NCBI GenBank assembly: GCA_025517465.1
Contig: JAOPKE010000004.1
Span: 324,165-388,164 of the forward strand
Length of the DNA stretch: 64,000 nucleotides
From: Halobacteria archaeon HArc-gm2
GTDB lineage: Archaea > Halobacteriota > Halobacteria > Halobacteriales > Haloarculaceae
Direction: 5' to 3'
In this document: piece after piece, positions 5,605 to 17,796 of the stretch
Numbering within the stretch: the first letter of the stretch is position 1
Layout of the letters: each line of letters starts with the position of its first letter
Translations under genes and position numbers: made by a program
Notes under the pieces: model-generated
What the model was told of the DNA's origin: nothing
What the model saw: the letters and a program-made list of their open reading frames with translations, nothing else
Databases searched by the model: none

Positions 5605-6753
5605 ATGCTACCAACAGTGGTCCTCCAGGGTGGCGGCGCCGGAGTCATGTTCGTCGGCGTCATCCTCCTGTTACTCGTTATCGCGCTGGTTTACTCCAGC
5701 ATCGTCATCATCCGACCCTACCAGCAGGGCGCGTACACGGTCCTCGGTTCGTACAACGGCCTGCTCGACCAGGGTATCCACTTCGTCTGGCCCTTCGTCT
5801 CGGACGTGACCCGGTTCGACATGCGTACCCAGACGCTGGACGTCCCCCGTCAGGAAGCGATCACCCGCGACAACTCGCCGGTGACCGCCGACGCCGTCGT
5901 CTACATCAAGGTGATGGACCCGAAGAAGGCGTTCCTCGAGGTCGAGAACTACGAGCGCGCGACCTCCAACCTCGCCCAGACGACGCTCCGCGCCGTGCTG
6001 GGCGACATGGAACTCGACGACACGCTCAACAAACGCGGCGAGATCAACTCCCGCATCCGCCAGGAACTCGACGAACCCACCGACGAGTGGGGGATCCGCG
6101 TCGAGAGCGTCGAGGTCCGCGAGGTCAACCCCTCGAAGGACGTCCAGCAGGCCATGGAGCAACAGACCTCCGCCGAGCGAAAGCGCCGCGCCATGATCCT
6201 GGAAGCCCAGGGTGAACGCCGCAGCGCCGTCGAGACGGCGGAAGGTGACAAACAGTCCAACATCATCCGCGCACAGGGTGAAAAGCAGAGCCAGATCCTC
6301 GAAGCGCAGGGTGACGCCATCTCCACCGTCCTCCGCGCGAAGTCCGCCGAGGCGATGGGCGAGCGCGCCATCATCGACAAGGGGATGGAGACGCTGGAGG
6401 GCATCGGCCAGAGCGAGTCCACGACGTTCGTCCTCCCCCAGGAGGTCACCTCACTCGTCGGCCGCTACGGCAAGCACCTGACCGGCTCCGACGTCAAGGA
6501 GAACGGCCACGTGCTCGAAGGGCTCGAATTCGACGAGGAGTCCCGCGAGATGCTCGGCCTCGACGACATCGAGGAGATCCTCGGTCAGATCGACGCCGAG
6601 GCGGACGTCGACGTCGAAGAGATGGAACAGGCCGCCCAGGCCGTCAAACACGGCGAGGATCCGAACGAAATCTCCGACGCCGACGAGGTCATCGAGGAGA
6701 TGGACCAGGAGTTCAACGCCGACGGCGGGTCGACCGCCTCGGACGAGAACTGA
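5605..6753 (+). CDS. SPFH/band 7 (stomatin-like) membrane protein
   Basis: The 382-residue protein has one N-terminal membrane anchor (about residues 14-36) and an SPFH/PHB domain beginning IIRPYQQGAYTVLG. A long charged helical segment follows with repeated AQGE/AQGD words (about 195-250), typical of stomatin/HflK-type coiled coils. An acidic C-terminal tail of about 70 residues is probably disordered. SPFH proteins form oligomeric cages at the membrane and recruit NfeD partners or proteases; nfeD lies immediately upstream. Which protease, if any, it works with cannot be told from the sequence. Confidence 0.95.
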   Translation: MLPTVVLQGGGAGVMFVGVILLLLVIALVYSSIVIIRPYQQGAYTVLGSYNGLLDQGIHFVWPFVSDVTRFDMRTQTLDVPRQEAITRDNSPVTADAVVYIKVMDPKKAFLEVENYERATSNLAQTTLRAVLGDMELDDTLNKRGEINSRIRQELDEPTDEWGIRVESVEVREVNPSKDVQQAMEQQTSAERKRRAMILEAQGERRSAVETAEGDKQSNIIRAQGEKQSQILEAQGDAISTVLRAKSAEAMGERAIIDKGMETLEGIGQSESTTFVLPQEVTSLVGRYGKHLTGSDVKENGHVLEGLEFDEESREMLGLDDIEEILGQIDAEADVDVEEMEQAAQAVKHGEDPNEISDADEVIEEMDQEFNADGGSTASDEN

Positions 6754-13742: not shown

Positions 13743-15326
13743 ATGTCACAGTCCGGTCAGCGACGCATGGGTGGCCAGCCCCTCTTCATCCTCGACGAGG
13801 ACACCCAGCGGACGCACGGGAAGGACGCACAGAGTTCGAACATCGCCGCCGGAAAGGCCGTCAGTGAGTCCGTTCGGACGACACTGGGCCCCCGTGGCAT
13901 GGACAAGATGCTCGTCTCCGACTCGGGCGACGTCGTCATCACGAACGACGGCGCGACCATCCTCGAGGAGATGGACATCGAGCACCCCGCCGCCCAGATG
14001 ATCGTCGAAGTCGCCCAGACCCAGGAAGACGAGGTCGGCGACGGCACGACGACGGCGTCCGTACTCACCGGACAGCTCCTCGCGAAGGCCGAGGACCTGC
14101 TCGACGACGACGTCCACGCGACGACCATCGTCGAGGGGTACTCCCAGGCCGCCGAACTCGCCCAGGAGGCCATCGACGAGGAAGTGCTCGACGACGAACT
14201 CGACGACGAGATCCTCGAGAAGGTCGCCGAGTCCTCCATGACCGGCAAGGGAACCGGCGACGTCGCGGCCCACGCACTGGCCGAGACGGTCGTCGAGGCC
14301 GTCCGACACGCCGACAGCGACGACGGCATCGTCCGCGACAACATCGTCGTCCGGACCCAGACAGGCTCCTCTTCCTCCGCGACGGACCTCATCGAGGGCG
14401 TCGTCATCGAGGAAGAGCCCGTCCACGAGAACATGCCCCGCTCGGTCCAGGACGCCGCTATCGGCGTCGTCGACGCCGACCTGGAGGTACGCGAGAGCAA
14501 CATCGACGCCGAGTACAACGTCTCCAGCGTCGACCAGCTCAACGCCGCCATCGAGGCCGAGGAGTCCGAGCTCCAGGGCTACGCCGAGGATCTCGTCGAC
14601 ACCGGCGTCGACGTCGTCTTCGTCACCGGTGACGTCGACGACCGCGTCGCCGCCCACCTCGCCAAGGCCGGCGTCGTCGCCTTCGACAGCGTGGGCGACG
14701 ACGACGTGCAGGCCATCGTCAACGCCACCGACGCCAACCGCGTCGGCAGCGTCGATACGCTCGAAGACGAGGACATCGGCGCCGCCGACGACGTCAGCGT
14801 CGAGAAGTACGGCGACGACGACCTGACGTTCGTCACCGGCGGCGCCACCGCCGAGTCCGTCACCGTCTTCGCCCGCGGCGGCACCGAACACGTCACCGAC
14901 GAGCTCGAGCGCGCGCTCAACGACGCGCTCGACGTCGTGACGGCCGCCCTCGACAAGGGCGGCGTCGTCCCCGGCGCCGGCGCCACGGAGATCGCCGTCG
15001 CCGACTACGTCCGCAGCGAGACCGCCGGCATCGAGGGCCGCAAGCAACTCGCCGTCGAGGCCTTCGCCGACGCCCTCGACGTGCTCCCGCGCACGCTGGC
15101 CGAGAACACCGGGATGGACCCCATCGACGCGCTCGTCGACCTGCGCAGCCTGCACGAGCAGGAGGGTCGCGCCGGCATCATCAGCGAGGGCCAGACCGGC
15201 GTCATCGACGACCCCGTCGACTACGGCGTCCTCGACCCCGCCGCCGTCAAGCGCGAGGCGGTCGAGAGCGCCACCGAGGCCGCGACGATGATCGCTCGCA
15301 TCGACGACGTCATCTCCGCGAGCTGA
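13743..15326 (+). CDS. Thermosome (group II chaperonin) subunit, divergent
   Basis: The 527-residue protein is an ATP-dependent folding chaperonin subunit. The N terminus ([20 protein letters not shown]), [19 protein letters not shown] and the ATP-site GDGTT (99-103) are canonical, as is the late [18 protein letters not shown]. The apical domain (about 200-375) is unusually acidic and diverged. The C terminus stops at IDDVISAS without the Gly-Met-rich tail found in many haloarchaeal subunits, so this is likely a second- or third-type subunit (CCT3-like) in a hetero-oligomer. ATG 13743 is used because GAGGT lies eight bases upstream. Confidence 0.95.
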
Positions 15327-15451
15327 TCGGTCAAGCGTTTCATCGCGAGACTGCGGCTCGCGGAGATACCGACGCGAGCTGATCGGTCGAGCGTTTTAGC
15401 GCGAGACTGCGGCTCGCGGAGATTCCGACGCGAGCTGATCGGCCGAGCGTT
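15317..15451 (+). repeat. 56-base tandem repeat (2.4 copies) starting inside the thermosome stop
   Basis: Units begin at 15317, 15373 and 15429, each with CGCGAGCTGATCGG; the third is cut off after about 23 bases. Unit 1 overlaps the last codons and the TGA of the thermosome gene, so each repeat copies the gene end. Every full unit contains a CGCGAG/CTCGCG inverted repeat and a T-rich GCGTTT, which could work as repeated transcription terminators. Confidence 0.9.
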
Positions 15452-15786
15452 TTCATTCTTTCACGACGCGTAGCGCCCGCTATCGTCGAGTACTCACAGG
15501 AAAGGGGACAGACGCGCGCGGCGGGATGCCCACGGTAACTGTGGCCGCCGCGCGGGTGTTCGGAAACGGTGCGCTGTCTCGCAAGCGTCGCCCGGCGTGT
15601 ACCGGCTTCCGCGGCACACATCAGTTTAGGCGTGCCTAAAGCACAAAAATCCATCGGTGATTTCCACCTGGTGGGCCCAACACTCAAGCCGGTCGTAGTC
15701 GAAACTGTTGACGAGCCAATACTACTGGAGCCGTTCGCCGACCCGGCAGCAGTCCCTGGATTTCCCTGCTGTCTCTCGCCACTCCA
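15452..15786 (+). promoter_or_regulatory. Upstream region with DtxR-like palindrome
   Basis: No gene is visible. At 15625-15640 lies TTTAGGCGTGCCTAAA, symmetrical except for the two central bases, with TTAGGC/GCCTAA half-sites like those of DtxR/IdeR/SirR iron- or manganese-responsive repressors. It is about 147 bases before the next gene. An AT-rich CACAAAAATCC follows it directly. Control of the downstream gene by metal is inference. Confidence 0.5.
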
Positions 15787-17796
15787 ATGCCCGATTCATC
15801 ACGAACCACGGACCGGCGCGACGCACCGACCGACACCACGCGACGGACCTACCTCCAGGCCGCCGGCGCGCTCGGAGCGGTGTCGCTGATGGGGAGCGCC
15901 GTCGTCGACGACGCGCTCGAACAGCGCGAGGTGCGACAGGTCGCCGACCCGGCCGGGTCGAACCGTCGCGGGGACTTCCTGTGGATGTACGGTGACGTGC
16001 TGGCCGACGAGCGCCGCCGGGCCAACCGCTTCGCATTCGCACGCCGCCACGACCTGGCCGTCGTCGTCCTGATCCGCTCGGCCAACCTCGATTCGAGAGG
16101 CGGGTTGTTCAGGCGAGCGCTCGAAGAGGCGACGGCCGCGGGACTCGACGTCTGGATTCGCGTCGGATTGCTGACGGACGTCACCGCGAAGGCGTTCGTC
16201 GAGGACGCCGATGCCCGCGAGCGCCATCTGGACCGACTCCACGAGGTCTGTCGGATCTACGACGACCTGACCGACGACGGGCGCGTGATACTCTGGGAGG
16301 AGGCGCCCGTGTTCGGCCAGTGGGTCGCGGGCGGCGAGTGGAACGACGCGGCGGTCGAGAACATGCTCGAATACGGCCCGCGAATCTACGCCGCACAGAA
16401 ACGGACCGTCGTCGAGGCGACCACCGACCGCGAGGTGGGCATCTTCTGCCACTTTCCCTACGTCGTCGATTCGAAGAAGCCCGAGGTGTTCGAGACGCTG
16501 ACCGACCGCATCGCAGACCGGGGTGCCAGCCCCGACTTCGCCTTCACCGACTTCTACCGGGGGTGGTACGAGAAGGACGTCGGCCCGGAGGTCGCCGACG
16601 ACGCCGTCAGAAGCCTCGTCGAAAACGCCGGCGCGGCCCTCGGCGGGAAGCCAGTGTTCTACCTCGGGCAGACCCACACGGTCAACCCGAAGCACACGCC
16701 GAGCAAGCAGTCCATCCGGTCGAACCTCAGGGCCTCGCTCGACGCTGGCGCCGCCGGCCTGGGCTGGTACGTGCGCGGGAGCTACGTCCCGACCGAGCAG
16801 GGGTTCGACCCGTTCGTGCCGAACGCGCCCGGCGCCACGTTCGAGGGCCCAGTCGCGACGGACACTGTCGCCCGTGATCTCTTCCTGTACGCCTGGCTCT
16901 CGACGCTGTCCACGCGGCCAGCGTTCGACCCCGCCGACCGGTTCGACCTCTGGCTCCGCGGCGACGAGTTGTCGTTCTACGACCGTCGGGTACGCGCGAG
17001 AGACGGAGACGGCTGGACGTTCATCGGCGACGTCGACGGCTACGTCGACGGGGAGTACCCCTACGGCGGCGGGCCGGACGGGAACGTCGCCGTCGTTCGC
17101 GGCCTCCGGCGGGACCGGTGGCTCGACGGCGACACGCTCGCCCTCCGAATCGCGTCGGGTCAGGCCGCCGACGAGACGACGCTCCGCGACGCGCTCGCGA
17201 TGCCCTGTGACCCCGACGCCTACGTCGCCGAACACGAGGCGGCGTCGCTGTTAGCGGGCGACAGTCGGGTAGAACGATTCTCGCTCGGTTCGAGCGACGA
17301 ACAGGTGCCGCTCGCTCCCGGTGGCACTCGACGACTGGAGGTCCCCATCGAGCGGCCGAATCCTCCGTCGCTCCACGGGCTCCGGCACCCCGAATCGCTC
17401 GACGCGATTCGGGACCTGCAGTCGGCCGAGCGACGTGAGGGGTTCGACCGGCGCGACCACTTCGACCTCTGGCTCCACGGATCGGGTCTCTCCGGACGGG
17501 AGACACTCCCGGGAATCGAGGACGGAGCGGGAGTGCCGAAGTCTCCGGCCGACGAAAGCGTCACGGCCGTCAGTTCCGACTCGGTCGCGCTGTGCTACGG
17601 CCTCCGGCGCGACCGGTTCCTCGACGACGGACTGCGACTGGCAACCGCCGAGACCGAACCGGCCGTCAGACGCGCTTACGCGATGCCCTACGCCGGGAGC
17701 GAGACGTTCCGGTCGGCCTCGGCTGCGGTGGAACTGCTCGCCGAGCAACCGGGAGAGGTCGCGACGTACAGCCTCGACGCCGTAGACCTGCGGTAG
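15787..17796 (+). CDS. Tat-exported TIM-barrel-like protein with duplicated C-terminal module
   Basis: The 669-residue product starts with a twin-arginine signal (RRTYLQAAGALGAVSLMG, residues about 19-36). Residues about 55-370 look like a glycoside-hydrolase-type barrel, with FLWMYGDV, VVVLIRSANL, VILWEEAPVFGQW, FAFTDFYRGWYEKD and GLGWYVRG strands rich in Trp and acidic residues. Two related modules follow (about 375-500 and 545-665). Each has FDLWLxG...LS, then V...GLRRDR.LD...L.LA, then an A(Y/L)AMP word and a closing LLA. I do not know the family or substrate. A cell-surface or secreted enzyme acting on polysaccharide is a reasonable guess, not shown. Confidence 0.8.
   Translation: MPDSSRTTDRRDAPTDTTRRTYLQAAGALGAVSLMGSAVVDDALEQREVRQVADPAGSNRRGDFLWMYGDVLADERRRANRFAFARRHDLAVVVLIRSANLDSRGGLFRRALEEATAAGLDVWIRVGLLTDVTAKAFVEDADARERHLDRLHEVCRIYDDLTDDGRVILWEEAPVFGQWVAGGEWNDAAVENMLEYGPRIYAAQKRTVVEATTDREVGIFCHFPYVVDSKKPEVFETLTDRIADRGASPDFAFTDFYRGWYEKDVGPEVADDAVRSLVENAGAALGGKPVFYLGQTHTVNPKHTPSKQSIRSNLRASLDAGAAGLGWYVRGSYVPTEQGFDPFVPNAPGATFEGPVATDTVARDLFLYAWLSTLSTRPAFDPADRFDLWLRGDELSFYDRRVRARDGDGWTFIGDVDGYVDGEYPYGGGPDGNVAVVRGLRRDRWLDGDTLALRIASGQAADETTLRDALAMPCDPDAYVAEHEAASLLAGDSRVERFSLGSSDEQVPLAPGGTRRLEVPIERPNPPSLHGLRHPESLDAIRDLQSAERREGFDRRDHFDLWLHGSGLSGRETLPGIEDGAGVPKSPADESVTAVSSDSVALCYGLRRDRFLDDGLRLATAETEPAVRRAYAMPYAGSETFRSASAAVELLAEQPGEVATYSLDAVDLR

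Follow-up and report, generated by a model that had tools for sequence, protein, structure and literature searches.

Regulatory RNAs that spare iron are a classic bacterial solution to iron shortage. The bacterial examples RyhB, PrrF, FsrA, MrsI, and IsrR are mutually unrelated, according to the part of the source available to us (PMC9410917). Haloarchaea control iron through regulators of the DtxR family, and the candidate described here would share this type of control with the Idr, SirR, and TroR regulons; unlike it, those regulons come with no mention of a regulated RNA in the accessible portion of the report on them (PMC11349517). No archaeal iron-sparing RNA was found in the open-access literature, a scope outside which the primary papers on Idr/TroR and archaeal DtxR regulons fall.

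We analyzed a stretch of 64,000 nucleotides from the haloarchaeon HArc-gm2 (the window). Our preferred reading, to which we give a probability of about 0.8, is that a small RNA, repressed by a DtxR-family protein and induced by iron starvation, blocks translation of a [2Fe-2S] ferredoxin and would thereby be an archaeal functional analogue of RyhB. What carries this reading, at the level of sequence, is the operator, its recurrence together with the RNA, the rebuilt stems of the RNA, and a perfect, co-changing match to the ferredoxin gene.

The palindrome and a putative promoter

DtxR/IdeR-type operators are interrupted palindromes with a TTAGGN4CCTAA-like motif. An element of this kind stands in the window within the following arrangement:

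15644 to 15651, minus strand: TATA-like box GATTTTTG of a putative minus-strand promoter, directly upstream of the palindrome, an arrangement repeated in relatives
15625 to 15640, no strand assigned: DtxR/IdeR-type palindrome TTTAGGCGTGCCTAAA, the putative operator, an exact motif with half-sites kept in the congener G191 and present upstream of all 24 RNA copies
15500 to 15624, minus strand: candidate iron-regulated small RNA, recognized by conservation against G191 and by homologues in 23 other genomes

The earlier note had described a near-symmetrical palindrome with the half-sites of DtxR/IdeR repressors, and this description holds: 14 of the 16 positions are symmetric, and the element is an exact instance of TTTAGGN4CCTAAA. 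In G191 the half-sites are unchanged, and the differences are confined to spacer bases. The exact motif occurs at 6 places in the 4.25-Mb genome and its reversed control at none. When up to two mismatches were allowed, the whole genome showed no enrichment (23 places versus 42 for the control), and therefore just the near-exact form of the palindrome is informative.

The note had also pointed to iron-uptake genes as the place to look for further copies, and it is there that most were found. Of the five other exact sites, three lie 4 to 5 bp ahead of Peripla_BP_2 binding-protein genes and one lies at an ABC-transport operon. Two of these sites share a locus, L038, where an ABC ATPase and a FecCD permease adjoin the periplasmic-type binding-protein genes. 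One is at L039, 14 bp before an operon of solute-binding protein, permease, and ATPase; of the two at L040, one is 5 bp before a binding-protein gene and the other precedes a FAD/thioredoxin-reductase-like gene. Sites with one mismatch were found in the gap following a ferritin-family DpsA gene (L041) and in the upstream region of a Zip transporter gene (L042). Together with the Peripla_BP_2, FecCD, and ABC operons at exact sites, these are metal-uptake or storage genes. Judged by gene content, the exact palindromes are a putative iron or metal regulon, mostly at iron-uptake operons, and this genome context supports reading the palindrome in the window as a DtxR/IdeR-type site with an iron response. 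A palindrome was also seen in G164 (L098, about 5819 to 5834), 4 bp before ATGTGTGCCGG, which is followed by an ABC ATPase gene; the start there resembles that of the window RNA, by short sequence only.

On the minus strand of the window the order is ATTTTTGTGC, palindrome, and conserved block, and this order is repeated in other genomes, where CTTTTTGTGT, ATTTTTGTGC, or TTATTACT precedes the palindrome. The natural reading would be an archaeal promoter in which the repressor site separates TATA box and start site. The 5' end of the candidate RNA is placed by its spacing from the TATA box, and its 3' end, near 15500, is uncertain; the transcript would be roughly 120 nt long in the window and longer in the second genus. 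Between the window and G191, the block is identical at 119 of 120 positions and the promoter at 43 of 45, versus 81 of 101 immediately downstream of the block and 74 of 101 on the far side of the promoter. Across the 28 loci examined, the exact palindrome is upstream in 24, as an iron-responsive promoter would have it; that all 24 carriers have it is partly a matter of definition, because the 4 loci without a palindrome were counted as nonmembers.

A recurrent candidate RNA and the ferredoxin start codon

Comparison of congeners brought out two conserved words, GTGGGCAT(C) and GTCTGTCCC, separated by a variable stretch. The pattern GTGGGCATN{7,37}GTCTGTCCC, which contains no palindrome, was searched in 392 genomes of the order and matched in 26, and 22 of those 26 have the exact TTTAGGN4CCTAAA on the same strand 69 to 190 bp upstream. 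The invariance of both words and of the tail element is partly built into this search pattern, which is not so for the palindrome. The matches in G065, G224, G092, and G318 had no upstream palindrome and were dropped as family members. An earlier pattern had given 13 matches, 7 with a palindrome; the 6 without one, several of them in coding sequence (by eye, an Mrp-type ATPase), were likewise dropped. A sequence-only model (R1) run over 106 family genomes added G259 and ranked first G313, already known from the congener comparison; it gave many weak matches, from which just those with an upstream palindrome were kept.

The carriers thus total 24, the window genome and 23 other haloarchaeal genomes of three genera, each with the palindrome 69 to 190 bp upstream of the core. 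The loci differ, adjoining the thermosome gene in one genus and lying elsewhere in the others. The downstream gene runs in the opposite direction in the window and in G259, so that there the RNA does not serve as a gene's leader. Rfam covariance models gave no match at the gathering score in the window, and none on the RNA. In another family, G027 (L100, 5831 to 5890) has the TATA-palindrome arrangement with GTCTGTCCC 33 nt downstream and without GTGGGCAT; this may be a divergent relative of the RNA.

The core of the candidate RNA is predicted to be a hairpin with these parts:

15545 to 15554, minus strand: 5' arm of the core hairpin, CGCGCGGCGG, from the stem test
15525 to 15537, minus strand: anti-ferredoxin loop, UACCGUGGGCAUC, complementary to GATGCCCACGGTA at the ferredoxin start
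15515 to 15524, minus strand: 3' arm of the core hairpin, CCGCCGCGCG, from the stem test
15505 to 15513, minus strand: conserved tail element, GUCUGUCCC, with an invariance partly built into the search pattern

A perfect stem of 7 to 10 bp surrounds the loop in eight of nine representatives, and apart from close pairs the stem sequences differ. Examples are CGCGCGGCGG/CCGCCGCGCG in the window, GATTCCGG/CCGGAATC in G286, CGCCCCGGC/GCCGGGGCG in G366, CGCGGCGACG/CGTCGCCGCG in G162, and CAGCGACGG/CCGTCGCTG in its congener G230. Eight of the nine beat at least 97% of 2,000 shuffles (0 to 57 of 2,000 reach the observed value), the shuffles being mononucleotide shuffles, which are weaker than dinucleotide shuffles. 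The exception is G259, with a stem of only 5 bp that 784 of 2,000 shuffles equal. This test stands in place of a formal covariation count because the MAFFT alignments (A1, A2, and A4) leave the stems unaligned. A single-sequence fold of the region was no better than shuffles (z, -0.34). Within the loop, the ends UACC and GCAUC are unpaired, and the middle GUGG is in a weak inner stem.

Reverse-complemented, the loop reads GATGCCCACGG and includes a start codon. A search of four genomes with this sequence yielded 22 matches, of which 2 are the RNA genes themselves and 3 fall exactly on start codons. These three are one gene in three genera, encoding MPTVEYLNYEV..., a [2Fe-2S] ferredoxin (PDB 1DOI; E value, 8.8e-78). 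None of the remaining 17 is on a called start codon, the gene caller being a crude one that called no gene at all around several of them. G103 gave no ferredoxin match to GATGCCCACGG; its RNA has the loop CUGUGGGCAUC, and so the ferredoxin genes of G103, G172, G059, and G313 were predicted to start with GATGCCCACAG (CCCACA). The prediction was fixed before the genes were read, and that start was found in all four. The loop CUGUGGGCAUC thus coincides with a ferredoxin Thr3 codon ACA instead of ACG. This change from C to U in the loop and from ACG to ACA in the gene is one event on the tree.

Ferredoxin starts were read in 18 of the 24 carriers, leaving out G230, G233, G241, G274, G327, and G366, and in all 18, which represent few independent lineages (about five), the loop is perfectly complementary to the ferredoxin start codon region over 11 to 15 nt. 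The match is 13 nt long for the window genome and G191, 12 nt for G259, and 15 nt for G286; ten genomes of the second genus and the four congeners each have 11 nt. Conserved antisense complementarity to the mRNA of an iron protein, with one co-change, is what these predicted pairings amount to. Among 32 genomes with no detected RNA, codons 2 and 3 vary, being CCC ACG in 4 (among them the congener G265) and CCC ACA in 2. Against 736 other gene starts of its own genome, drawn from 954 kb of partly overlapping stretches, the loop has a longest match of 9 nt, versus 13 for the ferredoxin, and the whole RNA has one of at most 11. The 13-nt helix of loop and ferredoxin has an energy of about -24.5 kcal/mol. 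RNAduplex energies failed to single out the ferredoxin, which ranked 26th of 137 starts with the whole RNA and 26th of 137 with the core alone, and in G313, 116 of 193 other starts had an equal or better energy. This energy is uninformative because the sequences are GC rich, and it is therefore the perfect, conserved, and co-changing match that bears the ferredoxin claim.

While iron is plentiful, a DtxR-family repressor, presumably of the Idr or TroR type, would be bound between TATA box and start site and keep the RNA off. With iron short, the repressor would leave, and the RNA would be made and fold into its hairpin, with a loop complementary to the first 11 to 15 nt, AUG included, of the [2Fe-2S] ferredoxin mRNA. 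Pairing would begin between the unpaired GCAUC and GAUGC, a stretch containing the AUG, and the weak inner stem would open. The duplex would mask the start codon of the probably leaderless mRNA and block initiation, and the lower ferredoxin synthesis would spare iron. The ferredoxin upstream regions look leaderless, and in the parts of the studies available to us 72% of haloarchaeal mRNAs are reported to be so (PMC5867862, PMC6560208).

It is unlikely that the RNA is real and iron regulated while its match to the ferredoxin is secondary, the RNA stabilizing or activating the ferredoxin mRNA or acting through its conserved elements on other targets or on a protein. The tail GUCUGUCCC is conserved without explanation, with no convincing target gene among the 736 starts, and pairing at a start codon does not by itself fix the sign of regulation. 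Against this, start-codon occlusion by methanogen small RNAs lowers translation, as far as the accessible text goes (PMC6560208). Ferredoxin proteins of Haloferax volcanii, including fdx HVO_2995, fall about twofold on iron starvation, as iron sparing predicts, in the available part of that report (PMC11349517); this drop shows only that the direction is plausible, because it comes from another genus in which the RNA was not sought by name.

The neighboring exported protein and the peptide reading

One further feature adjoins the palindrome:

15787 to 17796, plus strand: exported TIM-barrel protein with a predicted glycoside-hydrolase-like fold, a neighbor and probably not the regulated gene

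The earlier note had taken this gene as the only one downstream of the palindrome. It is indeed the next gene on the plus strand, with a twin-arginine-type N terminus (RRTYLQAAGALGA), a predicted barrel, and two repeated C-terminal modules (by eye, FDLWLxG ... LRRDR(W/F)LD ... AMP), but the promoter-like TATA box and the conserved noncoding block on the minus strand had been overlooked. The open reading frame has no match in Pfam, NCBIfam, or PHROGs. Its AlphaFold model (mean pLDDT, 75.4) has a barrel fold, and the best Foldseek matches are to GH164 (E value, 9.4e-8; TM score, 0.33) and then to other barrel glycosidases. The protein is predicted to have the barrel fold of GH-A-type glycoside hydrolases, with a putative catalytic role; E172, a candidate for the catalytic glutamate pair, is invariant. 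The protein evolves fast, showing 77% identity to its G191 counterpart versus 99% for the neighboring thermosome.

That the palindrome regulates this protein as a member of the iron response is highly improbable. The gene is the next one on the plus strand, and G191 retains gene and site together; however, the palindrome is about 145 bp from the ATG, whereas clear functional sites are 4 to 14 bp from their starts, and its promoter-like side faces the minus strand. Of 23 distinct orthologous loci, where the motif had been expected, 22 lack it, G191 being the sole exception. The 23 derive from 30 examined (19 plus 11, seven on the same contigs), and the count is without L036, a 49-residue match, and L037, a second fragment of G070. 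In four congeners (L093, L094, L096, and L097) the exported gene is missing between the thermosome and SAM-hydrolase genes, yet palindromes and a related block are present there; the corresponding interval of G265 has neither of the two. Given the spacing and the missing sites, the exported protein is an unsupported and improbable target, and the site probably belongs to the minus-strand RNA gene. Behind the thermosome stop codon lie tandem copies, each of about 62 bp, of that gene's 3' end (15315 to 15450 in the window; L095, intergenic), three in the window and about four in G265. In L093, L094, and L097, the RNA gene is followed, in the same orientation, by a lipoprotein-like gene of about 800 amino acids that has palindromes of its own; L096 has only a remnant.

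Least probable is that the minus-strand transcript is a small mRNA, for an iron-regulated small protein or a leader peptide, and not a regulatory RNA: an ATG does follow the palindrome by 4 to 8 nt in seven of nine representatives (15619 to 15621, minus strand, in the window), as at real repressor targets, but the peptides are unrelated and 38 to 93 amino acids long, the loop falls in varying frames or outside the first open reading frame, a single-base indel disrupts the frame between the window and G191, and the conserved part is the loop, which is matched to the ferredoxin. No open reading frame is conserved among the RNA representatives, and the distance between the two conserved words (20, 21, 36, 39, 42, 48, or 52 nt) shifts the frame. 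By these comparisons, the conserved block behaves as a structured small-RNA gene would.

Comparison with known regulatory RNAs

The hairpin family of one haloarchaeal family, predicted to be DtxR controlled and to shut off a leaderless ferredoxin mRNA by pairing loop to start codon, with loop and codons co-evolving, is likely the first archaeal iron-sparing regulatory RNA. RNAs driven by such palindromes, with re-evolved loops, may extend to other haloarchaeal families, G027 with its palindrome and GTCTGTCCC being a lead. RNA control of leaderless mRNAs is an open question in haloarchaea, and a named target, a prediction at the level of base pairs, and a natural co-change make it directly testable here, in species that we take to be cultivable (Halomicrobium and Haloarcula types).

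The comparisons that follow draw on the portions of the cited sources available to us. Among haloarchaeal RNAs, Haloferax volcanii sRNA132 (phosphate; PMC6560208) and sRNA479 (zinc transport; cited in PMC11218638) are likewise intergenic small RNAs, tied to nutrient and to metal supply, respectively; they differ in nutrient and targets, and no DtxR box is described for them in those portions. Methanosarcina mazei sRNA162 is an archaeal small RNA that also occludes a start codon, but its target mRNA has a ribosome-binding site and is not iron related (PMC3510493, PMC6560208). MrsI of Mycobacterium tuberculosis is predicted to be repressed by IdeR and so would answer to a DtxR-family regulator too (PMC9410917); it belongs to another domain of life, and the likeness drawn is one of regulator. 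The closest functional parallels are RyhB, PrrF, FsrA, and IsrR, in which an RNA controlled by an iron repressor base-pairs with messages for iron-sulfur proteins and spares iron (PMC9410917). Those RNAs are bacterial and have a Fur operator, whereas the candidate is archaeal with a DtxR-type operator and is likened to them by function, with no relation in sequence expected, and its predicted pairing, unlike theirs, joins a hairpin loop to a leaderless mRNA at its start codon.
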